Assembly (NCBI GenBank): GCA_900553345.1
Contig: USDE01000019.1
Coordinates: 1-12,025 of the forward strand
Length of the DNA: 12,025 nt
Source: an uncultured Collinsella sp.
GTDB taxonomy: Bacteria; Actinomycetota; Coriobacteriia; Coriobacteriales; Coriobacteriaceae
Direction: 5' to 3'
Position 1 is the stretch's first letter, and every line of letters starts with the position of its first letter. The position numbers and the translations under genes were made by a program. The notes below the pieces were generated by a model. That model searched no databases, was not told the origin of the DNA, and saw only the letters and a list, made by a program, of their open reading frames with translations. Shown here one piece after another: positions 1-12,025 of this stretch.

Positions 1-2322
1 ATCGCCGCCGAGCGCCTTGAGCTGAGCCAGGATTTGCTGGGCTGCCGTATCACTCTCAAGATACGTCGAGAATGCGGCAGAGAGCTTTGACGCGTCCTTA
101 AGATCTTCGGGCGACAGTGCCTTAAACTGATCAGACTGCAAAAAGCCCTCAAACAGCTGGTTGGCTAGTGTTCCCACCTGCTGCATTTGCTCGGGCGTGA
201 GTTCCAGACCGTCAAAGATACCCGAGAAATCTGGAGTTGGCGCTTTTGCCATGATGTCGCTGAAGTCGATGTCCTTGCCAACGCCCGAAAGGTCAATGTC
301 CAGCCCCGACAGATCGATGCCAGAAAGGTCCATACCGCCGGCCGCACCCGAAAGTGCAGACGTATCGAACGAGAACGCGCTCTTGAGCGCCGCCTCGTCC
401 ACACTGAACATGCTGCCCAGATCCACGCCTTGCTTGGCCTCGCCTTGCAGTTCGTCGAAGGTTTTGCCCGTAAAGACATCCGTCTCGGGGTGGTCGAGTT
501 GCTCCTGCACAATCTGCAAATCGGCGGCGCGCTCCATAAGCTGGCGAGTCAGCGCATGCGTATAGGCAATGCCCGGAGACAACGCACTCGCGTTGGCTGT
601 CTCGTTAGGTCGCACCACGCCCACAATGTGCACGTCAATACCGTCGGCAACCTTGGCAGCCATAAAGTCGGCGTCGTCAGACATGTCGGTCCACATGCCG
701 GTCTCTTCGTTTTTGCGATAGGCATCGGCCGGCGACAGCACCTTAAACGTCGTGGACAACGCATCATCATAGGTAAAGTCGGCGCCGGTCTCGGGCGTCT
801 CGATCTTACCGTCGGCCGTCATGGCACTGTTTACCAGATCGTTGAGCTCATCGATATCCAGCGCACCGATGCTGTAGAGCGTATAGTCGCCCACCGTACC
901 GCGGCTCGAAAGCACCATCACGGCTTCGTTTGCGGTCGTGGGCCAATGACCGGCGACGACATCGTACTGGCTGTCGAGCAGGCTCTGGTCTTCAATCATC
1001 TCGTTAAAGACCGAGGTTCCCATGGATTCCATGCTCACCGTTGCCGCCGAGCTCGCGCCTCCGCTCATGGCCTCGGTCATGGCGTTGGGCACCAGCCGGA
1101 CAGGCTTCTCATCGCCCTTGCCGGCACGATAGACAACCGGCGATACACCGTAGCCATACTGGATGGCGTTGACCTCTTTGTCGATACCATCGCCGCCGTC
1201 GTCAAGCCATGCCTTAAAGCTTGTCATGTCGTTGGACTTAACGCTCGCAAACATATCCTTTACGGCCGTGACCACGGGAATCTTATCGGTTCCCTGAGCC
1301 TTGCCGTCGGTACCGTCGTCGGACGAATCCTCGCCGTTGGACGCCTCGTCATCCGTGGCCCCCTGTCCGCCCATCATGGACGACAGGTCGTAATCCTGCT
1401 TGGAAATGGTGAGCGGGTAGCTCGAGAGCGTATCCTCCTCGACCTTTTTGATGTAGCCGTTTACGCCGTTGGACAGCGCCAGAATCGCCGCGATGCCGAT
1501 AATGCCAATCGAGCCCGCAAAAGCAGTCATGGCCGTGCGGCCTTTTTTGGTCATGAGGTTGCGGGCAGAAAGCCCCAGCGCCGTCACAAAGCTCATCGAG
1601 GTTTTGCGCGTAGGCTTTGCCTCGCGGCGCGTGGCGTCAGCGACATCGAAAGGATCGGAATCGTCGGTGATCTTGCCGTCCGCCAGGTTGACGATGCGCG
1701 TGGCGTATTGGTACGCCAGCTCGGGATTATGCGTGACCATAATAACCAGACGGTCGCGCGCCACGTCCTTGAGCAAGTCCATGACCTGCACGGACGTTGT
1801 GGAATCCAAGGCGCCGGTCGGCTCGTCTGCCAGCACAATCTCGGGATCGTTAATCAGGGCGCGGGCGATGGCCACGCGCTGCATCTGTCCGCCCGATAGC
1901 TGGCTCGGGCGCTTGTTAACGTGCTCGCCCAAGCCGACTTTCTCCAACGCCTCGCGCGCACGCTGGCGGCGCTCGGCATGCCCCACGCCCGTGAGCGTGA
2001 GCGCCAGCTCCACGTTTTCCAAAATGGTCTGATGCGGAATGAGGTTATAGCTTTGGAACACAAAGCCGATGCGGTTGTTGCGATAGGCATCCCAATCGCG
2101 GTCACGGAAGTCCTTGGTCGAAATACCGTCAATCAACAGGTCACCGGAATCAAAGTGGTCCAGCCCACCGATAACGTTGAGCATTGTGGTTTTGCCCGAG
2201 CCCGAGGGACCCAGAATGGCCACGAACTCGTTATCGCGAAAAGCCAGGCTCACGTTATCGAGCGCCACCTGCGTAAACGACTGTGTGACGTACCTTTTGC
2301 AAATACCTTTGAGCTCCAACAT
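1..2322 (-). CDS. MacB-like ABC transporter, fused ATP-binding/permease protein (3' end outside window)
   Basis: The protein is an N-terminal ABC ATPase fused to an FtsX/MacB-type permease; 774 codons are visible and the frame is still open at base 1. Visible ATPase motifs are Walker A GPSGSGKTT (residues 38-46), a Q-loop in FVFQSYNL (about 87-94), signature LSGGQ (142-146), Walker B IVLADEP (162-168) and switch histidine H198. A first membrane helix follows at about 262-285 (GRTAMTAFAGSIGIIGIAAI). The rest of the visible protein is a large extracytoplasmic domain of more than 480 residues, acidic and Ser/Gly rich. It includes a short DLSG-type repeat at residues 664-690. The closing three helices expected of the family should lie beyond the window. 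The start is ATG with GAGAGG (2332-2337) nine bases upstream. Family members export peptides, antibiotics or lipoproteins, or act as mechanotransmission systems; the substrate here cannot be told. The gene is separated from the next operon by a terminator, so it is probably a separate unit. Confidence 0.93.
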   Translation of the reverse strand, partial: MLELKGICKRYVTQSFTQVALDNVSLAFRDNEFVAILGPSGSGKTTMLNVIGGLDHFDSGDLLIDGISTKDFRDRDWDAYRNNRIGFVFQSYNLIPHQTILENVELALTLTGVGHAERRQRAREALEKVGLGEHVNKRPSQLSGGQMQRVAIARALINDPEIVLADEPTGALDSTTSVQVMDLLKDVARDRLVIMVTHNPELAYQYATRIVNLADGKITDDSDPFDVADATRREAKPTRKTSMSFVTALGLSARNLMTKKGRTAMTAFAGSIGIIGIAAILALSNGVNGYIKKVEEDTLSSYPLTISKQDYDLSSMMGGQGATDDEASNGEDSSDDGTDGKAQGTDKIPVVTAVKDMFASVKSNDMTSFKAWLDDGGDGIDKEVNAIQYGYGVSPVVYRAGKGDEKPVRLVPNAMTEAMSGGASSAATVSMESMGTSVFNEMIEDQSLLDSQYDVVAGHWPTTANEAVMVLSSRGTVGDYTLYSIGALDIDELNDLVNSAMTADGKIETPETGADFTYDDALSTTFKVLSPADAYRKNEETGMWTDMSDDADFMAAKVADGIDVHIVGVVRPNETANASALSPGIAYTHALTRQLMERAADLQIVQEQLDHPETDVFTGKTFDELQGEAKQGVDLGSMFSVDEAALKSAFSFDTSALSGAAGGMDLSGIDLSGLDIDLSGVGKDIDFSDIMAKAPTPDFSGIFDGLELTPEQMQQVGTLANQLFEGFLQSDQFKALSPEDLKDASKLSAAFSTYLESDTAAQQILAQLKALGGD

Positions 2323-2576
2323 GGACGGCAACCTCTCCCACGCGGACGCACTTGCCCGCTCTCCCCCGCCGTTCGTATTCGACGCGTTTGTCCTACTCTA
2401 TCCCCATTTTTTGCCGGAGCCAGTGAGGAATGTAGGGAACCGCGCCAAAAAACGAACGGGACGACGCCCAAAAGAAGAGGTCCCGAGCGGGACCTCTGTA
2501 TGGTGGAGATTATCTTGAAAGGCAGCGGACTACTCCGCACAGCGGCGCGCGATCCTCGCCATGCTTTACGCGTTTT
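2323..2576. other. Intergenic region between the ABC gene and the thioredoxin lipoprotein gene
   Basis: This 254-bp stretch lies between two minus-strand genes. It contains the intrinsic terminator at 2470-2497 and, next to the ABC gene, its Shine-Dalgarno site. The ABC gene promoter should lie at about 2340-2460. An A/T-rich patch there, TAGAGT on the minus strand at 2395-2400, could be a -10 element, but no credible -35 sits at the right distance. I see no convincing reading frame in it. Confidence 0.6.
2470..2497 (-). terminator. Rho-independent terminator of the microprotein/NapH-like/TlpA-like operon
   Basis: Read on the minus strand, a 10-bp perfect stem (AGAGGTCCCG with CGGGACCTCT, bases 2476-2497) closes on a very tight loop and is followed at once by TTCTTTT (2470-2476). 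It lies about 80 bases past the TAG of the thioredoxin lipoprotein gene and ahead of the ABC gene. It therefore ends the leftward operon and insulates the two transcripts. A T-rich tail follows only in the leftward direction. Confidence 0.85.
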
Positions 2577-3548
2577 CTACTGCTCGCTATTCGCAATCGC
2601 CTGGTCGATAAGCTTGTCGAGCGCTGCGCGCTGCTCAGCGGAGCTGATGGCTCCCACGATTGGATCCCCTACGATGTTGCCATTCTGATCGATGACATAC
2701 GTTGTCGGGAACGAGAACAAATTTGACGTAAACTTACCGGCCTCGCTATCCGACTTGAACCAGATGTTCTTATATGTCACGCCCTTCTTGCTCAGCACGT
2801 CCTTGGCATCTGCGATCTCGCCCTTGTTGCCATCGAGCGTAAAGGAATTGACGCCCACGACCTGGCCGCCCTTCTCGGCAAGCTCCTGATTCAGCTTCTC
2901 AAGATCGCCCAGCTCGCCCACGCACGGCTTGCAAGTAGTGAACCAGAAGTTCATGACGGTGACCTTGTTCTTAGAGAACAGCTCGTCGCTGTTCACGTCG
3001 TTGCCATCCAGGTCCTTGCCCGTAAAGCTGGGGAACTTCGTCGCCTCGCTCGAAGCATTGGCACCAGCCGTCATGCCAGCGGTCGAAGCGTCGACGCTCT
3101 CGCCTGCACTCGGCGTGCTTCCACAGCCGGGGAACTCCTTCTCCAGGCTCTCGAGCTTGTCCTCGATCTCCTTGATCTGCTGTGCACCGGCCTTGAGCGT
3201 CTTGAGCTCATCCGCCGTAAACTCATCCTTGGCGCCGTCGATGGTCTTGAGCAGGAAATCGCCGTAATTGCTGCCGTCCTCAATCATTGCCGAGTCTTTA
3301 TTTGCCGCATTGAATACCTTTTCCCACAGCGCGTTATCACTCGAAAAGATCTCGTTCTCCTTCTGCATGAGCTTCGCATACAGCTCGGCGGCCTCGTCGG
3401 CATTGGCCGGCTTCTGCGCAGTGAGTTCTGCGATCTTAGGATCGGAGCTCGCAGATTCGCTCGCATTGCCGCCAGGTGCCGAGCACGCCACAAGACACAA
3501 GGCCAGCACCGGCACCATAAACAGGGCCGCAATCTTAGAAAGCTTCAT
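2577..3548 (-). CDS. TlpA-like thioredoxin-fold lipoprotein with N-terminal helical extension
   Basis: This is a membrane-anchored extracytoplasmic thiol-disulfide oxidoreductase of the TlpA/ResA group, 323 residues from the chosen start. A lipoprotein signal ends in the lipobox L19-V-A-C22. A low-complexity linker follows, then a charged helical domain (about 36-140) with one extra cysteine, C142. A second Ser/Ala/Gly linker (143-170) leads to the thioredoxin domain (about 171-320). That domain carries the redox motif C206-K-P-C209 after the strand VMNFWFTT, and the cis-proline loop FSFP281TTYV. Family members are usually 150-200 residues, so the helical domain is an addition. An ATG two codons further upstream (3554) lies only one base from the GGAGG; the second ATG (3548) has ideal spacing and is preferred. 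The gene is 29 bases downstream of the NapH-like gene and last in the operon. The NapH-like protein is its likely source of electrons. The substrate is unknown. Confidence 0.92.
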   Translation of the reverse strand: MKLSKIAALFMVPVLALCLVACSAPGGNASESASSDPKIAELTAQKPANADEAAELYAKLMQKENEIFSSDNALWEKVFNAANKDSAMIEDGSNYGDFLLKTIDGAKDEFTADELKTLKAGAQQIKEIEDKLESLEKEFPGCGSTPSAGESVDASTAGMTAGANASSEATKFPSFTGKDLDGNDVNSDELFSKNKVTVMNFWFTTCKPCVGELGDLEKLNQELAEKGGQVVGVNSFTLDGNKGEIADAKDVLSKKGVTYKNIWFKSDSEAGKFTSNLFSFPTTYVIDQNGNIVGDPIVGAISSAEQRAALDKLIDQAIANSEQ

Positions 3549-3555
3549 AGTCATT

Positions 3556-3560
3556 CCTCC
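3556..3560 (-). promoter_or_regulatory. Ribosome binding site that decides the TlpA-like start
   Basis: GGAGG on the minus strand is separated by seven bases from the ATG at 3548 but by only one base from the ATG at 3554. The downstream ATG (reading MKLSK) is therefore the likely initiation codon. Confidence 0.8.
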
Positions 3561-3577
3561 GTTTTGTCGAAGCTTGT

Positions 3578-4480
3578 TTACTTTTTATCGGCGGGCAAGG
3601 GAAGCTTTTCCGCCGACACATCCAGGCCATAGCGATAGCTGATGGCATCGACGGGACAGGCCCCGATGCACTTTCCGCACCGGATGCATTCGGCATGATT
3701 GGGCGCGCGGACCACATCAACGTCCATCTGACAAGCCTTTGAGCACTTGCCGCACGAGACACATTTGCATGCGTCAACCCGAATCCCCAGTAGGGACACC
3801 CTATTCATGAGCGCATAGAATGCGCCGAGTGGACAAATCCATTTGCAGAAGGGGCGGTAGAACAAAACGCTCAGCACTACCACGGCAATGAGAACGGCAA
3901 GTTTCCAAGTAAAGAGCTGTCCCAACGCAGATCGAATGCCGGCATTGGCAATGGCCAGAGGAATGGCGCCCTCGAGCACACCCTGCGGACAGATGTACTT
4001 ACAAAAGAACGGGTCGCCCATGCCCACGTCGTTAACCACCAAGACGGGCAGCAGCACCACGGCAAACAACAGCACGACGTACTTGATGTACGTGAGCGGC
4101 TTGAGCTTTTTCGTGGAGAACTTTTTGCCGGGAATCTTATGAAGCAGCTCCTGAAGCCAGCCAAACGGGCACAGAAAGCCGCATACAAAGCGTCCCAGCA
4201 GCACGCCGAGCAAAATGAGCGTACCGGTAACGTAGTAGGAGAAGTTGAACTTAGATGAACCCACCACCGACTGGAACGACCCGATGGGGCACGCACCCGA
4301 TGCCGCGGGGCACGAATAGCAGTTAAGCCCGGGTACGCAGACTGTTTTTCCCGCGCCCTGATAGATGCCGCCTTTAGCAAAGTTTGGCAGGTGAATGTTG
4401 GTGATGAGCGTTGCCGCCGCCTGAATGAATCCGCGAATTCTGGCCAAAACATGCGACACGGTGTTTTTTCTTTTATCCAA
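3578..4480 (-). CDS. NapH-like membrane 4Fe-4S ferredoxin protein
   Basis: This 300-residue membrane electron-transfer protein resembles NapH/YccM/NosR-type polyferredoxins. Helices lie at about 16-30, 82-108, 131-152 and 192-212. The positive-inside rule places both ends in the cytoplasm. The first outside loop carries four cysteines, C48, C54, C57 and C64 (in CVPGLNC and later GACPIG). CxxxCP motifs occur at C100/C104, C160/C164 and C212/C216. The cytoplasmic C-terminus has two ferredoxin motifs: C240-x2-C243-x2-C246-x3-C250 and C265-x2-C268-x2-C271-x3-C275-P. The known family role is passing electrons between quinol or ferredoxin and extracytoplasmic partners. No nap, nos or mau catalytic genes are nearby; the partner appears to be the TlpA-like lipoprotein. 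Start: the TTG at 4480 gives MDKRKNTV and overlaps the end of the microprotein gene by eight bases (TTGGATAA), with GGAG ten bases upstream. A GTG at 4459 is the alternative. An open frame extends further upstream, but that part overlaps the microprotein gene. Confidence 0.9.
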   Translation of the reverse strand: MDKRKNTVSHVLARIRGFIQAAATLITNIHLPNFAKGGIYQGAGKTVCVPGLNCYSCPAASGACPIGSFQSVVGSSKFNFSYYVTGTLILLGVLLGRFVCGFLCPFGWLQELLHKIPGKKFSTKKLKPLTYIKYVVLLFAVVLLPVLVVNDVGMGDPFFCKYICPQGVLEGAIPLAIANAGIRSALGQLFTWKLAVLIAVVVLSVLFYRPFCKWICPLGAFYALMNRVSLLGIRVDACKCVSCGKCSKACQMDVDVVRAPNHAECIRCGKCIGACPVDAISYRYGLDVSAEKLPLPADKK

Positions 4481-4619
4481 TTCCGATACACTCCAAGCAC
4501 AGCCTAATCGCCTTGGCCAGCACGGCATCCGCCTCGCCACGCATAACGCCAAAGCACACCATGGCCACACCGACGATCAGCAACGCAACCTGCATTACAG
4601 GTTTTATCGCTTTGAACAA
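4473..4619 (-). CDS. CD1871A-type CXXC motif membrane microprotein (48 aa, TTG start)
   Basis: This small gene is easily missed because it starts with TTG. It encodes 48 residues: a basic N-terminus (MFKAIKP), one membrane helix (about 8-27), then RGEADAVLAKAIRL and the ending CLECIGIG with the redox-like motif C41-L-E-C44. It matches my memory of the CD1871A family of CXXC microproteins, whose members end in nearly the same sequence and sit beside 4Fe-4S and TlpA genes in anaerobic Firmicutes and Actinobacteria. By the positive-inside rule the CXXC faces outward. The Shine-Dalgarno site AAAGGAG (4628-4634) lies eight bases before the TTG at 4619; an in-frame GTG at 4628 overlaps that site and is less likely. 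It is first in the operon, and its end overlaps the NapH-like start, suggesting translational coupling. The function is unproven; a thiol relay or an assembly factor for the NapH-like protein is my inference. Confidence 0.85.
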   Translation of the reverse strand: MFKAIKPVMQVALLIVGVAMVCFGVMRGEADAVLAKAIRLCLECIGIG

Positions 4620-4627
4620 CTTGACCA

Positions 4628-4634
4628 CTCCTTT
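4628..4634 (-). promoter_or_regulatory. Ribosome binding site supporting a TTG start
   Basis: AAAGGAG on the minus strand is a near-perfect anti-16S match, eight bases ahead of the TTG at 4619. It is the main evidence that the 48-codon frame is translated from TTG and not from the GTG that overlaps this site. Confidence 0.75.
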
Positions 4635-4652
4635 CGTCACGCGACCTATTGG

Positions 4653-4680
4653 ACCATATCGACTATAAAATCCGTGTTAA
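4653..4680 (-). promoter_or_regulatory. Possible sigma-70-type promoter for the leftward redox operon
   Basis: On the minus strand, TTAACA (4675-4680; five of six to TTGACA) is followed after 16 bases by TATGGT (4653-4658; four of six to TATAAT). A start of transcription near 4646 would leave a leader of about 27 bases before the TTG. It lies in the 91-bp divergent region shared with the two-component operon. Confidence 0.35.
4664..4671 (+). promoter_or_regulatory. Possible -10 element for the two-component operon
   Basis: TATAAAAT lies about 40 bases upstream of the response regulator ATG. No good -35 element stands 16-18 bases before it, as is common for promoters that depend on an activator. 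It overlaps the putative leftward promoter, so the two directions may exclude each other or share an operator. This is a weak call. Confidence 0.25.
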
Positions 4681-4698
4681 GCGCGATTTGAAATGTGC

Positions 4699-4704
4699 AA
4701 GGAG
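4699..4704 (+). promoter_or_regulatory. Ribosome binding site that decides the response regulator start
   Basis: AAGGAG lies six bases before the ATG at 4711. An in-frame ATG at 4693 would put this site inside the gene and add six residues (MCKETV) ahead of the canonical start of the receiver domain. Confidence 0.85.
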
Positions 4705-4710
4705 ACTGTT

Positions 4711-5385
4711 ATGCGTATTTTGATCGTCGAGGACGAGCAGGCGCTGTGTGACGCAATCGCGCGCAGCTTGCGAAACTTGGCGTACAGCGTCGACTGCTGT
4801 CACGACGGGCAGGAGGCGCTCGACCTGCTGGACGTTGAGGCCTTCGACCTCGTGGTACTCGACCTCAACCTTCCCCGTATCGACGGCATGACCGTACTCA
4901 GGGAACTTAGGAAAACTGACTGCGAGACCAAAGTGCTGATTCTGTCCGCACGTGGCGAAGTATCCGATAAAGTCGCCGGACTCGATGCCGGCGCCAACGA
5001 TTACCTCACCAAGCCGTTTCATCTGGACGAGCTTGCGGCAAGGATTCGCAGCCTTACCCTCAGACGCTTTACACAAAGCGACGTAGTTTTAACCTGCGGA
5101 AAGCTCAGCTTTGACACCAAGGCGCGCATCGCTTCCGTGGACAGCGAGGCTTTATCTCTTACGCGCAAGGAAACGGGAATCTTGGAATACCTGATGCTTA
5201 ATCAGGGGCGTCCGGTAAGTCAAGAGGAGCTTATCGAGCACGTTTGGGATAGCAGCGTGAACAGCTTTAGCAACGCAACCCGCGTTCACATCTCGTCACT
5301 CCGCAAAAAGCTGCGCAGCGCTTTGGGATACGACCCGATTCGTAATCGGATTGGAGAGGGCTACGTTATGGAGGATAGCGAATGA
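4711..5385 (+). CDS. OmpR/PhoB-family response regulator
   Basis: This is a 224-residue DNA-binding response regulator. The receiver domain (about 1-115) begins MRILIVEDE, with acidic pocket E7/D8, phospho-acceptor D51 in VVLDLNLP, switch S79 and conserved K101 in YLTKPF. The C-terminal winged-helix domain (about 125-222) has the family pattern LTRKETGILEYLM, then VHISSLRKKLR and the closing hairpin IGEGYVM. Its last four bases overlap the start of the sensor kinase gene (ATGA), so the two are co-translated and form a cognate pair. It is transcribed away from the microprotein/NapH-like/TlpA-like operon, across a 91-bp shared region. Control of that operon is likely by position but not shown by any operator I can recognise. 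The length is normal for the family. Confidence 0.95.
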   Translation: MRILIVEDEQALCDAIARSLRNLAYSVDCCHDGQEALDLLDVEAFDLVVLDLNLPRIDGMTVLRELRKTDCETKVLILSARGEVSDKVAGLDAGANDYLTKPFHLDELAARIRSLTLRRFTQSDVVLTCGKLSFDTKARIASVDSEALSLTRKETGILEYLMLNQGRPVSQEELIEHVWDSSVNSFSNATRVHISSLRKKLRSALGYDPIRNRIGEGYVMEDSE

Positions 5386-6533
5386 AAAGGCTTTCGCTGC
5401 AATGGCGCATAACGATTGTGACGGCACTGCTCACGTGTGCAGCATGCGTGCTGACGAACTGCCTGGTCGGCTATACGGGCATGCGCTACATGGATGCCAT
5501 CGGCAGTAACATCTCGGCCTTTAACGCAACCGGCGAAGATTCGCCCCAGGCGTTCGACCCAACGAAAGCGGTCCCCGATGACAGGGTCACGATCGTCGTA
5601 AACGACGCACAGGAGTCTTTTGGCACGACAGCCTGGTACATCACGGCTGGAGTCACACTCCTTGGCGGCGTGCTGGCATACTTTGTGAGCGGCCGTGCAC
5701 TCAAACCGCTACGGGATTTCGCCGCCCAGGTAGAGCGCGTGCAGCCTGACAACCTAAGCGAAATCAGACTCAGTGAAGATGTGCCCACCGAGCTACAACG
5801 ATGCAGCGCCTCTTTCAACGACATGATCGCCCGTCTTGGCGAAGGATTCTCTGCACAGCGTCAGTTTACCGGCAACGCCGCACACGAGCTGCGCACCCCG
5901 CTCGCCCTTATGCAAGCACAGATTGAACTATTCATCTCCGAGCACTCCGGTTTGCAACCAGAAACAGCCGAGCTGCTCGGCCTGCTACAAGAACAAACCG
6001 AGCGCATGTCTCGAATGACCAAGGTATTGCTTGAAATGAGTGAGCTCCGCAGCGTTCCTTGCGAGGACGATGTTGAACTCGGTCCCTTGTCCGAAGAGGT
6101 CCTCACTGACCTTGCGCCACTTGCCGAAAATAGGAGCATAGCCCTCAACTGTGCTGGAGACGCTTTAGTAATCGGGAGCGACACGCTCCTCTATCGGTTG
6201 CTGTTCAACCTGGCCGAAAACGCCATCCGTTACAGTCGCTCCGGCTCGACTGTCAATGTCTCCATCAGCGACAGCGACAGCCACGTGCTCCTGCGAGTCA
6301 AAGATGAGGGCCCGGGAATACCCAAGCAGTACCGAGAGAGCATCTTCCAGCCGTTCTTTCGTCTAGACAAATCCCGCAGCAGGGCATACGGCGGCGCAGG
6401 ACTCGGGCTAGCGCTTGTTTGGGAGATTGCAGCACTTCACGGTGGCACGGTAGAGGTCGAAACAAGTTCCGAGAACGGGGCTACCATGCTCGTAAGCCTT
6501 CCAAAACGATCCGCAGCGTTAACCGAACAGTAA
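5382..6533 (+). CDS. Sensor histidine kinase, cognate partner of the OmpR-type regulator
   Basis: This is a 383-residue membrane histidine kinase. The first helix (about 10-31) is unusual in holding three cysteines, C19, C22 and C27, the first two as CAAC. An external loop of about 50 residues (32-83) has no cysteines. The second helix is at about 85-103. A HAMP-like linker (about 104-157) leads to the HisKA domain with phospho-accepting H168 in AAHELRTPLA. The ATPase domain shows an N-box with N276 and N280, G1 motif DEGPGIP (308-314), F-box FQPFFRL (322-328) and G2 motif GGAGLGLAL (337-345). All catalytic boxes are intact. The loop is too short for a known ligand-binding domain, so the stimulus is probably read in or at the membrane. 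The ATGA overlap with the regulator gene makes the pairing secure. Confidence 0.95.
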   Translation: MKRLSLQWRITIVTALLTCAACVLTNCLVGYTGMRYMDAIGSNISAFNATGEDSPQAFDPTKAVPDDRVTIVVNDAQESFGTTAWYITAGVTLLGGVLAYFVSGRALKPLRDFAAQVERVQPDNLSEIRLSEDVPTELQRCSASFNDMIARLGEGFSAQRQFTGNAAHELRTPLALMQAQIELFISEHSGLQPETAELLGLLQEQTERMSRMTKVLLEMSELRSVPCEDDVELGPLSEEVLTDLAPLAENRSIALNCAGDALVIGSDTLLYRLLFNLAENAIRYSRSGSTVNVSISDSDSHVLLRVKDEGPGIPKQYRESIFQPFFRLDKSRSRAYGGAGLGLALVWEIAALHGGTVEVETSSENGATMLVSLPKRSAALTEQ

Positions 6534-6600
6534 AACGAAAGGGGTCCCGAGCAACAGGAGTACAATTGCTGCATTGTTGCCACCTGATGGGAGATGGAAG
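6534..6600 (+). other. Short gap between kinase gene and LuxR gene
   Basis: The gap is 67 bases, with no clear terminator after the kinase stop. It holds a 6-bp inverted repeat GCAACA/TGTTGC (6551-6556 and 6574-6579) around a -10-like TACAAT (6561-6566). The LuxR gene may thus have its own autoregulated promoter, or be read through from the two-component operon. The sequence alone cannot decide. Confidence 0.35.
6589..6593 (+). promoter_or_regulatory. Ribosome binding site that decides the LuxR start
   Basis: GGGAG stands seven bases before the ATG at 6601. A TTG at 6574 opens the same frame earlier but has no comparable site at a suitable distance, so the ATG is preferred. Confidence 0.75.
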
Positions 6601-7605
6601 ATGGACTGCGATGGCTACCCGCGCATTCCCATGCCGTTGATGTGCACTGCCTTTGTGCCGGGGCAGATTGACGCTGCGGTTGCAGGCATTTCCGACCCCG
6701 ATTCACGCACCATCGCCACGGCAGAAGCGCTGTACTTTCGCGGACAGGCCACACCCGCCGCCGAGACAGCACGCCCCTATCTTGACGCCACCGACCCCGC
6801 ACTGCGTTATTCCGCATGCCTTATCTGCGGATATGCCAGTCTGTCGCTCAACCGTATCGCCGATGCCCGCCGTTGCCTTGCGGGCATCCTCGATGCGCCA
6901 ACTGACGAGGAATCGCCCGCCGTCCACGCCACGCATATCCTGTTCGCCTCCGCTGCGAGCGTCCTGCTGCACTTGCCTTCCCCGCATTCCGCCGAAGAGT
7001 TTTATCCACTTGCGGCGCATCTGCCCGAAGGCCTGCGCCTGTTCGCCAGCTACGTGATGGCGCATGCCCTGTACCTGCGCGGCGAATATGGCCGCAGTCT
7101 GGGCATGGCGGAAAACGCCCTGATCATGAAACAGGGAAGTTATCCCATCTCGGAGCTGTTCCTGCACTTGTCGGCTTCCATGGCCTGCATGAGCCTCAAG
7201 GACATCGACACCGCAAAGGCACACTTCGGAGCCGCTTGGGACGTTGCGCGTCCCGACGGCCTTATCGAACTCATCGGCGAGCACCACGGCCTTTTGCAGG
7301 GGCTTATCGAGGCGTGTCTAAAAACGCAATACCCTGACGACTTCGCACGCATCATCGAGATTACGTATCGATTCAGCTACGGCTGGCGGCGCATCCACAA
7401 CCCCGATTCGGGCGAGGACGTGGCCGACGATCTAACGACCACGGAATTCACCATGGCCATGCTCGCCTGTCGCGGGTGGACCAACGCCGAAATCGCACGC
7501 CATATGGGAGTATCGCCGGGTACCGTCAAAAACCGCCTATCAGGAGTGTATGCCAAGCTTGGTATCGGAACTCGCGCCGAGCTGGTCGCGCATATGTTGC
7601 GTTAG
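6601..7605 (+). CDS. LuxR-family transcriptional regulator with helical-repeat N-terminal region
   Basis: This is a 334-residue, probably cytoplasmic, one-component regulator. Residues about 22-255 are Ala/Leu-rich paired helices resembling tetratricopeptide-like repeats (for example AEALYFRGQATPAAETARPYL and HALYLRGEYGRSLGMAENAL). Such regions usually bind partners or ligands. No receiver, PAS, GAF or P-loop NTPase motif is visible. The C-terminal LuxR/GerE helix-turn-helix spans about 279-333 (TTTEFTMAMLACRG, TNAEIARHMGVS, then TVKNRLSGVYAKLGI), with the recognition helix around 305-320. Coriobacteria carry many LuxR-type regulators; this one is not a member I can name. It lies 157 bases ahead of the giant surface protein gene on the same strand and is that gene's most likely regulator. 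The inducing signal is unknown. Confidence 0.88.
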   Translation: MDCDGYPRIPMPLMCTAFVPGQIDAAVAGISDPDSRTIATAEALYFRGQATPAAETARPYLDATDPALRYSACLICGYASLSLNRIADARRCLAGILDAPTDEESPAVHATHILFASAASVLLHLPSPHSAEEFYPLAAHLPEGLRLFASYVMAHALYLRGEYGRSLGMAENALIMKQGSYPISELFLHLSASMACMSLKDIDTAKAHFGAAWDVARPDGLIELIGEHHGLLQGLIEACLKTQYPDDFARIIEITYRFSYGWRRIHNPDSGEDVADDLTTTEFTMAMLACRGWTNAEIARHMGVSPGTVKNRLSGVYAKLGIGTRAELVAHMLR

Positions 7606-7626
7606 CGGCCAGACTACCTGGCATAT

Positions 7627-7656
7627 CGAAAGCGTCCCGGGGGCCCGACGCTTTCG
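7627..7656 (+). terminator. Perfect 10-bp-stem hairpin downstream of the LuxR gene
   Basis: CGAAAGCGTC (7627-7636) and GACGCTTTCG (7647-7656) pair perfectly around a ten-base loop of only G and C. It starts 21 bases after the TAG of the LuxR gene, where a terminator would be expected. No T-tract follows in either direction, so it is not a textbook intrinsic terminator. It could be an attenuating or RNA-stabilising hairpin, or an operator. Confidence 0.5.
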
Positions 7657-7663
7657 CGCGCTC

Positions 7664-7734
7664 AAATTGGACATTTTGGCCATCGAACGGCACTACCGCC
7701 ACGGGGCGCCTTCTCGCAAAATTGGATTATTTCC
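7664..7734 (+). repeat. Pair of AAATTGGA-type direct repeats, candidate operator
   Basis: AAATTGGACATTTTGG (7664-7679) and AAATTGGATTATTTCC (7719-7734) share eight identical leading bases and a similar T-rich second half. They start 55 bases apart, about five helical turns. Each is an imperfect palindrome of the form AAAT-N6-(A/T)TTT. They are A/T-rich islands in GC-rich surroundings, just upstream of the surface protein gene. LuxR-family dimers often bind sites like this. Binding by the neighbouring LuxR regulator is my inference. Confidence 0.4.
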
Positions 7735-7751
7735 ACCGATACCTGCGGGAT

Positions 7752-7756
7752 GGGAG
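7752..7756 (+). promoter_or_regulatory. Ribosome binding site of the giant surface protein gene
   Basis: GGGAG is followed after six bases by the ATG at 7763. It fixes the start of the long frame at the MLDRRSLLV signal sequence. Confidence 0.8.
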
Positions 7757-7762
7757 CCAAAG

Positions 7763-10700
7763 ATGCTTGATCGCCGTTCGTTACTTGTTGCCGGAGCGTC
7801 CTCGCTGGCGAGCGTTATGTTGCCGCGCGTGCCGGGAAGCGCAAACGCCTTCATATTGCCGTTCGCGCCCACCGAAGCCCATGCCGACGAAAAAGACCCC
7901 TTCAGGGTGCTCGTTCTCTCGCGCACCATGTTTGGTGTGGTCGTGGTCGACGTTGCCAACAAGAATACGCCCATCACGGGTGCCCAGGTCACGCTCACAT
8001 CGCGCTATGCCGCAGGCAAGCAACTCGCCGCCACGACCGATGACGAAGGCACGGCCATCTTTGAGGTCGCGCCGCTTTCGGAAGGCTACGTGGACGAGGC
8101 GACGCTTCTCGACGCGTACGACTTTAACGGCGGCATCTCCATTAGCATGGCGGGCTACCGTGATGTCGAGATTCCCCTTGCGCGTATCCAGGGCGGCACC
8201 GCCATAACCGCGCCCACGCGTCCGCTTTCCGACGGCGAGCCGTACTTCCGCCAGCTCACGTTTGACGAATGGGACATCCAGTACGCTGAAGCCACGTTCA
8301 TGGCATTGCCGAAGGACGACGCCGGAAACGACCAACCCGACACGCACGCCTTTACCGTGCAGGCGCATCTGCCGCAGGGTGGACAGGCAACGCTGCACAT
8401 CAACAAAGTGACGCCTGCCGCGGGCAGCTCACCCGAAACCGTCACGCAGATCGGTCAGATCAAGGCCAGCGCATCGGGCGCGGATAATCTGGCGACGTTC
8501 ACACTCGAAGACAAGTTCCTCGATGCAGCGTCAAACCTTCTGGAGGAAGGATGCAAGCTGCGCTTTGTCCTCGACTATCAGGGCAAGACCTATACACTCT
8601 CCTCCCCCATGGCCGTTGTCACCGCGCCGGCCGCAAAGGCGGAATCGGGCTCGACCACTATCGTCCCCACCACCATGGACCAAGAGATTACTCCGTTTGA
8701 TTTCCCAGCAGCGTTCCCCGGCATTGGCGGCAACAAGTTCACCTGCTGGATGCCCGCGTTCCCCATTTTGTTCGATTTCTCGTTTGCTGGATACGTGCTG
8801 TTTGGCGGAGGATACAAACCAGCCAGCTATATGAACGATTCGGGCAATCCGGATCCGGAGTACTGGAAGAAGTCACCGCGCGAGTCGGGTGCCAAGCAGG
8901 CAAACCGCTACCTCGACGAAATGGAGGGGAAGTGGAATCAATATAAGAGCATGAGTGCCGGTTCGGGCACCGATCCAAGAAACACCAAGCTCCTTCGCCA
9001 CCATTGCACGCTGCTATTCACGATGGATATCGCCACACAGCTGTACGGCTCGCTCGCCTACGACTGGGTGGGCAAAACCTGGGGCGACAACAACGATCCC
9101 GCATTCGGCAATATTAAGGCCCTCTTCCAGGTAAAAACCGACCTCAACTGGACCGAGCAGTTTACCCTAGGACCGGTGCCGTTTTTCCTAAACGTCAACC
9201 CCTGGGTGCTGGCGAAGCTGGCGCTCGCCGTGGGTGCCCACACGCACGGCAGCGGCGCGGCGTTTTTTAAAAACATTTCGCTCGACTATTCAAACACCTC
9301 GGGCTCGTTCACCATCCAGATCGGGCTTGCCGTCACCTTTGGCGCTGGCGTTGCAGGCGTCGCTTCGTCTGCCGTGCGCGGCGCCGCATCCCTCACGCTG
9401 TTCATTGGGTACGAGAAGGCAGATGGACACCAGCTTCCGCGACTGCGCGTAGGTGCAGACGTCGATGTCGATGTGATACTCCAGTTCGTAATGTTCAAGT
9501 GGACCACCAAGGCTTGGTCGGGGTCGTGGCCCACACTCCTCGATTCGTGGAATATGTCGGTGAACAATGGCAACCAGTATGTGCTCCAGCGCTCTGAGCT
9601 CGCATTGGGTGGAGATACGCCTTACACGTTGGATGCCCGCTTCGGCACGCCCGGCAACATCAAGGCGGGCGGCGTGCCGCAATTTATCGCATCGGCCACC
9701 ATCGTCACCAACGCCGAGCTGCTCGCACGCGCCGAGGTTAAGGCTACTGCCGTAAACGTCGCGCCTGTCGTGCGCGATTGGGATCAAGTGGTCACGCGCA
9801 TTGAGCTCGAGGCAGATGCAGAAAGCAACGACACGGGACAGATCGAGCATTTCGTCCACGCACTGATAGAGAACGACGAAAACGCCGCGCCGATGTATGC
9901 GTACACCTATGTCAGGCAGGCGACGAACGCCGTTGCGGACCCCAACGCCAATTCTGCTGGTGTATCGGAGGACGAGCGTGGCGGAATCAAGCCCTCGAGC
10001 GACAACGTGCTGTTTACCGGCGTTCTCAGCAAAGCTCACATGAAGCTGGCGATTATCGCCGGCGTAGAGTGCCTGTTCCGTATCGCCTCGGTGCGCTACG
10101 GCGACAATGGCCGCTCGCGTCTGGTGGTGCACACAAAGGCAAACGGCACGTGGTCCGCTCCCACGCCCGTGGACTTTCCCCTTGGGTTTGGCGAGGGCGA
10201 CGTGGAGCGCGACGGCATATACGATTACGACTTCGACGTGGTGGAATATACGGACGGAAGAGAAAACCAGGACGCCTACGTGTTGCTGGTCTCGGGCGAG
10301 CGCCCCGACGGCGACAACACCCTTTTCGATACGGCAAGCACAGCCGGCATACTGTCCGTTGTGCGCCTGCGCATAAGTAATGACGAGATCCGCGTGGTGT
10401 CGCATACGTCATGGCGCAGCATCTCGCGCGGCCGCCTGCAAGAGGATGGCTACCATTGCCTGCAGTGCCCGCGTATCACGGTGGGCAAGACGCTCGTCGA
10501 CGGGCGCTTGTCGGGTGCCTACCTCCACCGCCGCGGAACCACCGCAGAAAAGGCACTCGGCAGCGAGGCTGAGGTTGCGCTGGAGTGCTTTACCCTGTGG
10601 TCGGACGTTTCGGGCGACAGCCTGACGTTCCGCCAAGTTCTCCGCTTTCCGCAAGCACCGTCGAGTATCGAACTGGGCGAGCCCGAGGATATCAACGGCA

Positions 10701-12025
10701 AAATGGTGGTGCCCGTTGCGTACGAGACCGCAGACGGTTGCGGCTGCGCATCGTACGCCGTGATCGGCCAGTCCATTGCGGGCTGGGGCGTTATGTCACC
10801 AGACGCCACGGTACCCCGTGCGGTACCGTGGCCGCAGCACACGGGCTTTTTGGCCACTGTCAACGAGCAGCTGCAGCATATTACTTGGACGCGAGGCGCG
10901 GCGGCATTTGCGTCGGAGCCCGTGGGTGCCGCAGGCTGTGGCCCGGCATCGTTTAGCGTAAGCAACAACGGCAGGTGCGTGCTCTATGTAGAGAACACCG
11001 ATGGCAAGGTGGGACAGACCTACGACGAAGAAGGCAACCCGGTAGCAGTGATGGGCAAGCACTTCCGCATCTTCGCCAGCACCTTGGCAGGCGATCTGTT
11101 CACGGAGCCGTTCGTGATGTGCGAGCTGGACCATCCCATCGATCAGATAACGACATTTTTGACGTCGGGAGGCATGCTCTCCGCGCTCGCCACGCACATT
11201 GTGAGCGCGGAGAAGAGCGAGGCAGAGCTGCACGGCATCGAAGTGCCCTTGGTGGCGTGTGCCACTCCGACGGGCGCGGTCGCTACCTCGGGCGCGGTGG
11301 TGCCCGGAGCAGCAGGCGAATCCTTCATGGTCACGGTGCGAAACGACGGCAACACCTTGCTGACCGCCGGCACGATCGATCTGTACCGAGAGGGCTCCAG
11401 CCAGCCGTTCTCCAGCGCATCCATCGGATTCGGAGCGAACGCACGCATGGCTTCGATCTACGATCCAGAGCTTGCCGAGGACGCTTCGGCCAACGACATG
11501 GCACGCGTGAAGTACGCGCTCGAGACGCTGGGCACACGTTTTGCGACGCACCCGCTGGTAGCCGACAACGGCAACGCCGTGCTGGCACCGGGTTGCACGG
11601 CACAGTTCCGCATGAGCTTCGCCATCCCCGAGAGCTGGAGCGACGAAGTGGGCAAGCGCGTAACGCTGTATGCGAAGGCGCGTAATCTGGTGGCGCTCGA
11701 TCCCGTGACGCTCGAGGAAATTCGACCGGGCACAAACTCGGCGCTTGGTGCCGTACTGCACGAGCTTCATGTGCCCGACGCGGCATGCGAACGCTCAGAA
11801 GTTCAGGTCGGCGTATGCGACAGCGCGGATACGACAGGACTTCACGACGCCCCGATGACGGCGGACAGCGATAGCGGCTCGAGTGGCGGCGGTACCGACG
11901 AGGGCGGCGGCTCCGGCGGAAGCAGCTCCGGCAGTGGCAAGGACCACGGCAATAACAAGCGCTCCGGAAAAGCGGGCGCGCTTGCGGGCACGGGCGATGT
12001 CAACGCTCCCCTTACGGCAGCCGCT
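7763..12025 (+). CDS. Giant secreted, sortase-anchored surface protein (3' end just outside window)
   Basis: The frame is open for 1421 codons and leaves the window close to its natural end. The N-terminus has a twin-arginine-like signal (R4-R5-S-L-L-V, then a hydrophobic run) with possible cleavage after ANA29 or AHA41. A carboxypeptidase-regulatory or Cna-B-like beta-sandwich follows (about 47-110: TPITGAQVTLTS, then TTDDEGTAIFEV). The middle region, about 310-740, matches nothing I know and has two aromatic/Gly/Ala-rich hydrophobic stretches (329-351 and 516-550). Residues about 760-1150 show repeated strand patterns such as RLVVHTKANGTWSAP and DAYVLLVSG, which suggest a beta-propeller. 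A CARDB-like domain occupies about 1173-1345 (GESFMVTVRNDGNTLL). The end is a Gly/Ser linker (1368-1405) and the sorting motif L1407-A-G-T-G-D followed by the first residues of a hydrophobic tail. The protein is probably anchored to peptidoglycan by a class of sortase common in Coriobacteria. The role (adhesion, glycan or protein binding) is not shown. No catalytic motif was recognised. Confidence 0.88.
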   Translation, partial: MLDRRSLLVAGASSLASVMLPRVPGSANAFILPFAPTEAHADEKDPFRVLVLSRTMFGVVVVDVANKNTPITGAQVTLTSRYAAGKQLAATTDDEGTAIFEVAPLSEGYVDEATLLDAYDFNGGISISMAGYRDVEIPLARIQGGTAITAPTRPLSDGEPYFRQLTFDEWDIQYAEATFMALPKDDAGNDQPDTHAFTVQAHLPQGGQATLHINKVTPAAGSSPETVTQIGQIKASASGADNLATFTLEDKFLDAASNLLEEGCKLRFVLDYQGKTYTLSSPMAVVTAPAAKAESGSTTIVPTTMDQEITPFDFPAAFPGIGGNKFTCWMPAFPILFDFSFAGYVLFGGGYKPASYMNDSGNPDPEYWKKSPRESGAKQANRYLDEMEGKWNQYKSMSAGSGTDPRNTKLLRHHCTLLFTMDIATQLYGSLAYDWVGKTWGDNNDPAFGNIKALFQVKTDLNWTEQFTLGPVPFFLNVNPWVLAKLALAVGAHTHGSGAAFFKNISLDYSNTSGSFTIQIGLAVTFGAGVAGVASSAVRGAASLTLFIGYEKADGHQLPRLRVGADVDVDVILQFVMFKWTTKAWSGSWPTLLDSWNMSVNNGNQYVLQRSELALGGDTPYTLDARFGTPGNIKAGGVPQFIASATIVTNAELLARAEVKATAVNVAPVVRDWDQVVTRIELEADAESNDTGQIEHFVHALIENDENAAPMYAYTYVRQATNAVADPNANSAGVSEDERGGIKPSSDNVLFTGVLSKAHMKLAIIAGVECLFRIASVRYGDNGRSRLVVHTKANGTWSAPTPVDFPLGFGEGDVERDGIYDYDFDVVEYTDGRENQDAYVLLVSGERPDGDNTLFDTASTAGILSVVRLRISNDEIRVVSHTSWRSISRGRLQEDGYHCLQCPRITVGKTLVDGRLSGAYLHRRGTTAEKALGSEAEVALECFTLWSDVSGDSLTFRQVLRFPQAPSSIELGEPEDINGKMVVPVAYETADGCGCASYAVIGQSIAGWGVMSPDATVPRAVPWPQHTGFLATVNEQLQHITWTRGAAAFASEPVGAAGCGPASFSVSNNGRCVLYVENTDGKVGQTYDEEGNPVAVMGKHFRIFASTLAGDLFTEPFVMCELDHPIDQITTFLTSGGMLSALATHIVSAEKSEAELHGIEVPLVACATPTGAVATSGAVVPGAAGESFMVTVRNDGNTLLTAGTIDLYREGSSQPFSSASIGFGANARMASIYDPELAEDASANDMARVKYALETLGTRFATHPLVADNGNAVLAPGCTAQFRMSFAIPESWSDEVGKRVTLYAKARNLVALDPVTLEEIRPGTNSALGAVLHELHVPDAACERSEVQVGVCDSADTTGLHDAPMTADSDSGSSGGGTDEGGGSGGSSSGSGKDHGNNKRSGKAGALAGTGDVNAPLTAAA

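Follow-up and report, generated by a model that had tools for sequence, protein, structure and literature searches.

What is the function of three tightly packed genes of an uncultured Collinsella sp. that encode cysteine-based redox proteins, and from which donor would these proteins draw their electrons? The genes lie in a stretch of 12,025 nucleotides (GenBank assembly GCA_900553345.1, contig USDE01000019.1, positions 1 to 12,025 of the forward strand), which we call the window. They encode a CD1871A-family microprotein, followed by a NapH-like membrane ferredoxin and a TlpA-like lipoprotein with a CKPC active site. An earlier reading made without database searches (the sequence-only reading) had proposed a ferredoxin-driven alternative to the CcdA/DsbD transporters. 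Judging from motifs, gene order and conservation, we consider it probable that the three genes act together in extracytoplasmic thiol reduction and do work like that of CcdA/DsbD by different chemistry. We found no published description of this three-gene module in the open-licence literature searched.

The three-gene module and its conservation

The tight packing noted by the sequence-only reading was confirmed on the minus strand and all three products have domain matches. The features of the module are:

4473..4640, minus strand: CD1871A-family microprotein (NF040920 match), one predicted transmembrane helix, C-terminal CLECIGIG
4488..4499, minus strand: CXXC motif (CLEC) in the microprotein, predicted to lie outside the cell (read from sequence)
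3578..4480, minus strand: NapH-like membrane ferredoxin, 300 amino acids, likely TTG start at 4480, stop at 3578 (PF12801 and Fer4; many close homologues of 300 amino acids; 18 conserved Cys)
4289..4339, minus strand: CX5CX2CX6C of the NapH-like protein, residues 48-64, putative [4Fe-4S] ligands on what is predicted to be the outer side (Cys conservation)
4169..4183, minus strand: CX3CP pair 1, residues 100-104, predicted at the inner edge of the membrane (122/122)
3989..4003, minus strand: CX3C pair 2, residues 160-164, proposed redox disulfide, predicted to face outwards (Cys conservation)
3833..3847, minus strand: CX3CP pair 3, residues 212-216, predicted at the inner edge of the membrane (122/122)
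3656..3763, minus strand: ferredoxin domain on the cytoplasmic side with two CX2CX2CX3C [4Fe-4S] motifs (residues 240-275)
2577..3554, minus strand: TlpA/ResA-like thioredoxin-fold lipoprotein, 325 amino acids (PF00578 57.1 bits, PF08534 52.5 bits)
3483..3494, minus strand: lipobox LVAC of the lipoprotein (read from sequence)
2922..2933, minus strand: CKPC active site of the lipoprotein with E at +3 (CKPCVGE; read from sequence)

The microprotein scores 64.6 bits with NF040920 (CD1871A_fam; cut-off 32) and thus belongs to a named family for which we found no described function in the literature searched. It has 55 amino acids counted from a GTG codon, and its real start is possibly further in, e.g. 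at 4628 or 4619. Its stop lies inside the first NapH codons, an overlap of genes laid out as for translational coupling.

We surveyed the neighbourhoods of CD1871A genes in three sets of loci. The nearest comparison genome (G001) has 43% of the sampled 31-letter words in common with the window, whose own genome is not part of the set. Within the window's class 21 of 149 genomes contain CD1871A, compared to none of the 14 control genomes. A NapH-like gene lies beside it on the same strand in all 22 Coriobacteriia loci, and a TlpA gene is found in each of the 20 loci for which a larger region was available. For the named genomes we scanned with the NapH alignment and took the best 80 of 592 loci, a sample that is biased to relatives of the query. 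They are mostly from Clostridia and relatives; three come from Treponema bins and two from bins that carry the label Chloroflexi or Anaerolineaceae. CD1871A directly precedes NapH in all 80 cases, 79 of them detected by profile and one by eye (L105, where the frame has no usual start codon), and TlpA lies within 5.5 kb in 71 (upstream in 63, downstream in 8). The third set was the Bacillota group with 299 genomes, 40 of which have a CD1871A match, 28 of them over the cut-off. We sampled 20 of these 40 loci, including 12 below the cut-off, and found NapH next to CD1871A in 20/20, in one case (L152) across a gap of about 700 bases, and TlpA in 11/20. The claim that the gene set recurs in other anaerobes was thus borne out, with NapH-like genes accompanying CD1871A in every set.

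As all 12 below-cut-off loci pair with NapH, the NF040920 model misses real members and could be widened. Most of the missed members belong to a branch ending in C(L/T)SC(I/M)G. A CD1871A-like branch ending mostly in CLSCIG(I/V)(Q/E) accounts for 14 loci in L144-L158; these are mostly below the cut-off and always adjoin a NapH-like gene.

Several occurrences of the module deserve separate mention. In Treponema sp. UBA4326 (L130) the full module is preceded, at a distance of about 4 kb, by another TlpA-CD1871A pair that has a NapH fragment. Loci L041 (G107:C32) and L048 (G071) come from different families and are 99.47% identical over 6,956 aligned bases that cover the module and the two-component system, which indicates either recent transfer or a contaminating contig; G107 has a second module copy (L046) in the usual gene context. 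Among plasmid records CD1871A was found in one, from Peptoclostridium acidaminophilum, beside NapH. A NapH match was obtained for 246 plasmid records, 237 of them from Enterococcus; among the matches listed 14% of the query was covered, corresponding to a ferredoxin motif. Two unannotated faecal scaffolds labelled 'UNVERIFIED: Bacteriophage sp.' (L165, MT836032.1, and L166, MT836098.1) contain full-length NapH relatives with 74-75% identity over 95-100% of the query and are possibly bacterial or mobile DNA. We found no PMSR/SelR (msrAB) gene among the window proteins scanned, and one in the 122 loci. In that locus, from a genome of the same genus, an MsrA-MsrB fusion with an apparent N-terminal anchor (L049:7866-8984, plus strand) lies between the two-component genes and CD1871A.

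Cysteine motifs and the proposed electron path

The NapH-like protein belongs to the NapH-like superfamily (Fer4_5), with 80.8 bits for PF12801 against a gathering score of 22 and an additional Fer4 domain. Models for NapH and NosR match this protein only at scores far below their cut-offs (TIGR02163: 67.8 vs 213.05 bits; NF007013: 52.2 vs 234 bits). We aligned 122 NapH-like proteins, i.e. the window, 101 loci (L033-L133) and a further 20 loci (L144-L163). There are 18 Cys columns which are kept in 117 to 122 of the 122 sequences, counting 14 in which the first Cys is shifted. Twelve of the columns are shared with E. coli NapH. They form the two [4Fe-4S] motifs and the membrane-edge CX3CP pairs 1 and 3 (both in 122/122), and the presence of these motifs had been predicted correctly by the sequence-only reading. 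The other six columns had been missed by it and have no match in E. coli NapH, which in turn has one further Cys (31) without counterpart. They constitute a CX5CX2CX6C motif near the N terminus and an additional CX3C pair. Cys 54, 57 and 64 are found in 122/122 and Cys 48 in 108/122; the remaining 14 have a Cys displaced by 1-2 residues, so the general form of the outer motif across the relatives reads CX4-6CX2CX6C. Of the additional pair, Cys 164 is invariant and Cys 160 is present in 117/122. We observed the same pattern for the 40 loci that were found via CD1871A, not NapH: Cys 54, 57, 64 and 164 occur in 40/40 and Cys 160 in 35; Cys 48 is in place in 26 and shifted in 14.

Both extra motifs are predicted to lie outside and the ferredoxin domain inside. 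The density of lysine and arginine is higher in the assumed inner NapH segments than in the outer ones in 122/122 sequences. A CXXC motif close to the C terminus occurs in all 121 collected microproteins including that of the window, and their N-terminal flank is more positive than the C-terminal flank in 94 (equal in 18). This bias fits a CXXC tail outside the cell with the NapH ferredoxin domain inside. In ferredoxin:thioredoxin reductase the active site combines one [4Fe-4S] cluster with a redox disulfide and uses six Cys, four as cluster ligands and one pair. By analogy, the six outer Cys suggest an outer [4Fe-4S] cluster and a redox disulfide. In the variant branch of 14 members all five NapH proteins with Ser160 lack a TlpA neighbour and eight of the nine others have one; this pattern is suggestive and may be a single evolutionary event. 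The AlphaFold2 model of the NapH-like protein (72 sequences) reached a mean predicted local distance difference test score (pLDDT) of 81.6 and a predicted template modelling score of 0.79. In a structure comparison with VIA essentially the ferredoxin part of this model was aligned.

The lipoprotein had been read as a thioredoxin-like protein with CKPC, and its AhpC-TSA and Redoxin domains, the lipobox LVAC and the motif CKPCVGE agree with this. Its thioredoxin-like domain, CxPC, E at +3 and lipobox are those of the reductive TlpA/ResA type. It does not reach the cut-offs of the NCBIfam models made specifically for ResA, TlpA, StoA and DsbE, and the sequences of solved structures that it matches include ResA and TlpA. 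We scored the TlpAs of 102 loci (the window and L033-L133), 12 of which were dropped as they had no same-strand TlpA of more than 150 amino acids within 5.5 kb. The CxxCxxE motif with Glu at +3 was observed in 90/90 and CxPC in 76/90 (by pattern). By a crude rule applied to open reading frames with long starts, 75/90 have a lipobox, 13 another signal or transmembrane stretch and two neither. CxxCxxE is the ResA/StoA-like signature and would indicate an active site of the reductive type. In one locus a rhodanese domain is fused to the module TlpA (L070:5908-6837, plus strand), and in another a Pyr_redox-Rhodanese protein adjoins the module (L038:5172-6863, minus strand).

We propose the following path. 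A soluble donor of low potential, most likely reduced ferredoxin, would pass electrons to the NapH-like protein at its 2[4Fe-4S] domain in the cytoplasm. The electrons would traverse the membrane via the inner CX3CP pairs to the outer six-cysteine site (CX5CX2CX6C and CX3C), where single electrons would be converted to a dithiol. The CD1871A microprotein would be anchored next to NapH and expose its CXXC tail on the outer side. Through thiol exchange it would transfer reducing equivalents to the lipoprotein with its CxPCxxE site, and the lipoprotein could in turn reduce surface disulfides or a surface enzyme. More tentatively, and with rather more doubt than confidence, we suggest that the module may be a ferredoxin:extracytoplasmic-thioredoxin reductase and, as such, a membrane enzyme of a new class. 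Its outer site would resemble ferredoxin:thioredoxin reductase ([4Fe-4S] on CX4-6CX2CX6C beside a CX3C disulfide), and it would deliver through a CXXC microprotein. If true, iron-sulphur electron flow would become a dithiol on the outer face and reducing power would cross the membrane without the thiol relay of thioredoxin and CcdA. For the many Clostridia, the Coriobacteriia and some Treponema bins that carry the module, surface redox repair would be tied to the plentiful ferredoxin pool of fermenters. The proposal bears on the means by which surface thiols stay reduced in anaerobes that lack CcdA/DsbD.

Relation to CcdA and other known systems

The membrane domains PF02683 and PF13386 are absent from the eight window proteins scanned, so none of these is a CcdA/DsbD family member. 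As the sequence-only reading had stated, CcdA/DsbD and enzymes for nitrate, N2O or methylamine did not turn up among those eight proteins. We then compared genomes with and without CD1871A, counting PF02683 matches at E 0.001 or better and using Fisher tests that ignore phylogeny. In the window's class PF02683 was found in 2/21 CD1871A genomes vs 96/128 others (p 1e-8), and in the Bacillota group in 10/28 over-cut-off CD1871A genomes vs 198/271 others (p 1e-4). If all 40 Bacillota-group matches are counted the figures are 14/40 vs 194/259. The matches of module genomes include weak ones (G079 of the class, 7.8e-6; G229 of the Bacillota group, 9.1e-4). The expected anti-correlation with ccdA/dsbD therefore held as a depletion of PF02683 and not as exclusion.

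Seven of the 20 named module genomes have PF02683, and we examined ten loci. Five of them (L134-L138, from five genomes) hold a true CcdA beside or fused to its own separate TlpA, so that in these 20 genomes ccdA is not routinely kept for the same lipoprotein. Four (L140-L143) encode HMA-type DsbD_2 proteins, of which L141 was identified by Pfam and the others by eye. The match in L139 is distant. In the tree of 98 TlpA sequences seven CcdA-linked TlpAs and one module TlpA form one clade with a weak support of 0.42. Using a rebuilt CcdA profile we found no canonical CcdA in the DNA around the 122 module loci. The sole non-TlpA match near a module was L124 8119-9528; we rejected it as canonical CcdA since it is of the HMA+DsbD_2 type, though with 31.8 vs 27.1 bits it passes for PF02683.

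A number of observations weigh against a dedicated thiol-reduction system of this kind. The outer Cys motif was one of the two search patterns of the named-genome scan, and its conservation in those loci is thus partly due to selection. The outer loop 1 of the NapH-like proteins is positively charged (mean net +3.3). Most of the outer motif falls within residues 31-60, where the block means of pLDDT drop to 46-56, and a Foldseek search with the NapH-like model gave no match at E 0.001 or better, and none for the membrane part. A TlpA neighbour is missing in 9/80 named and 9/20 sampled Bacillota-group loci (some on short contigs), and hence TlpA is not an obligatory neighbour. About one third of the Bacillota-group module genomes have a PF02683 match, and lineage is not controlled in the association of CD1871A with PF02683. 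Finally, the genus of G001 has 19 genomes, 11 with CD1871A, two with PF02683 and seven with neither, which indicates that the module is not essential. Taken together, the alternative to CcdA/DsbD is favoured by the conserved gene set, the reductive TlpA site, the charge bias, the scarcity of menaquinone genes described below and the PF02683 depletion, whereas PF02683 still occurs in some module genomes; reduced ferredoxin would be the donor.

We compared the module with known systems. In CcdA-Etrx-MsrAB2 of Streptococcus pneumoniae and CcdA-Trx-MsrAB-ModRS of Fusobacterium nucleatum a TlpA- or Trx-like surface protein is likewise fed across the membrane by a clustered partner. The F. nucleatum cluster has a two-component system alongside, as does the window. 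In contrast to both, the module has the NapH-like Fe-S protein and CD1871A replacing CcdA, and 121/122 loci are without msrAB. The msrAB cluster of L049 recalls both systems, which supports the view that NapH and CD1871A can occupy the place of CcdA. With extracytosolic electron transfer of the NapH/NosR/PceC type (PMC8238504) the module has in common the PF12801 membrane ferredoxin, the CX3CP pairs and the two [4Fe-4S] motifs. It differs by the six extra outer Cys, the CXXC microprotein and a thioredoxin-like client, not a flavinylated or haem one, and no nap, nos or pce enzyme genes lie in the window. Ferredoxin:thioredoxin reductase likewise turns one-electron ferredoxin oxidation into two-electron disulfide reduction, as we propose for the module. 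Unlike that enzyme the module protein is in the membrane and proposed to act outside the cell, and the proposed likeness concerns the chemistry and the cysteine inventory; FFTR is described as a flavoenzyme. The module does not belong to the CcdA/DsbD family, although it would do similar work; it is a variant of NapH-like electron transfer in which the outlet would be a thiol.

Alternative explanations and neighbouring genes

The loci without a nearby TlpA, together with the MsrAB gene inside the L049 cluster, would be explained if NapH and CD1871A were a general outward exporter of electrons that serves varied surface reductases, with TlpA as one of several clients (e.g. MsrAB or a peroxide-detoxifying protein). 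Apart from TlpA no gene recurs beside the pair to a similar extent: the largest neighbour clusters are two-component genes at 40 of 102 loci and ATP-binding cassette (ABC) genes at 25, and the next comprises 8. MsrAB as a general client was rejected with its single occurrence in the 122 loci. We regard a general exporter as unlikely.

Electrons could also flow inwards. The lipoprotein would then oxidise surface dithiols in oxidative folding, and NapH would pass the electrons to a cytoplasmic ferredoxin or other acceptor. Such a chain is reversible in principle and anaerobes need an acceptor for disulfide formation; however, low-potential ferredoxin is a poor acceptor. The Glu of CxxCxxE, which is kept in every module TlpA scored, tunes the active sites of ResA and StoA (PMC3914529) and also argues against this direction. 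According to the same source the pneumococcal Etrx proteins, which are fed by CcdA, carry Ser at that position, and thus the Glu is not needed for a client of CcdA type. Inward flow is in our view very improbable.

A third explanation concerns the donor. The PF12801 domain, the two CX3CP pairs and the two [4Fe-4S] motifs in common with E. coli NapH would also be expected of an ordinary quinol-oxidising protein of the NapH/NosR type that takes electrons from menaquinol, and NapH-like proteins are in some cases probable quinol oxidants (PMC8238504). We searched 41 module genomes (20 named and 21 of the window's class) and 14 controls for menaquinone genes. A MenA match is missing in 33/41, MenD exceeds its cut-off in 4/41 and PF02621 in 6/41, with one strong match; 29/41 have neither a MenA match nor MenD or PF02621 over the cut-off. 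In another 21 module genomes MenD is matched without reaching the cut-off, at most with 164.6 bits (G167), and all 14 controls match MenD loosely, seven of them over the cut-off. Such loose matches are expected from related thiamine diphosphate enzymes. As most module genomes are without menaquinone genes, a soluble donor is the simpler source and quinol is unlikely for most of them, leaving ferredoxin or a similar soluble carrier, though quinones may be scavenged. Moreover, menaquinol with a potential of about -75 mV is too oxidising for ResA-type dithiols. All in all we hold a quinol-oxidising role to be highly improbable. For the proposed thiol-reduction system reduced ferredoxin would remain the most likely donor.

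The microprotein start at 4640 is separated by 52 bases from a divergent two-component system:

4693..5385, plus strand: OmpR-type response regulator, divergent, likely linked (PF00072 and PF00486)
5382..6533, plus strand: sensor histidine kinase, likely linked (PF00512 and PF02518)

We considered whether the linked regulator pair and a MacB/FtsX-like ABC exporter act against disulfide-containing antimicrobial peptides that the module would reduce. This peptide-stress explanation is extremely improbable: regulator and kinase lie within 5 kb in 18/20 Coriobacteriia loci and ABC genes in 7/20 of the same set and 14/80 named loci, with the order RR-HK-TlpA-ABC-ABC-CD1871A-NapH (RR, response regulator; HK, histidine kinase) in L078 and also in L071, where the regulator is cut by the locus end, but two-component genes are near only 10/80 other loci and the Fusobacterium two-component system beside CcdA-Trx-MsrAB serves oxidative stress (PMC9239216).

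In the remainder of the window no RNA family reached its gathering threshold. A plus-strand open reading frame at 7550-12025 follows a LuxR-type regulator gene, encodes at least 1,492 amino acids and runs past the window end; at E 0.001 neither Pfam nor NCBIfam gave a match for it. On the other side of the module the lipoprotein gene is followed by an ABC transporter gene that is interrupted by the window edge, and its full-length relative in L042 contains an FtsX domain.

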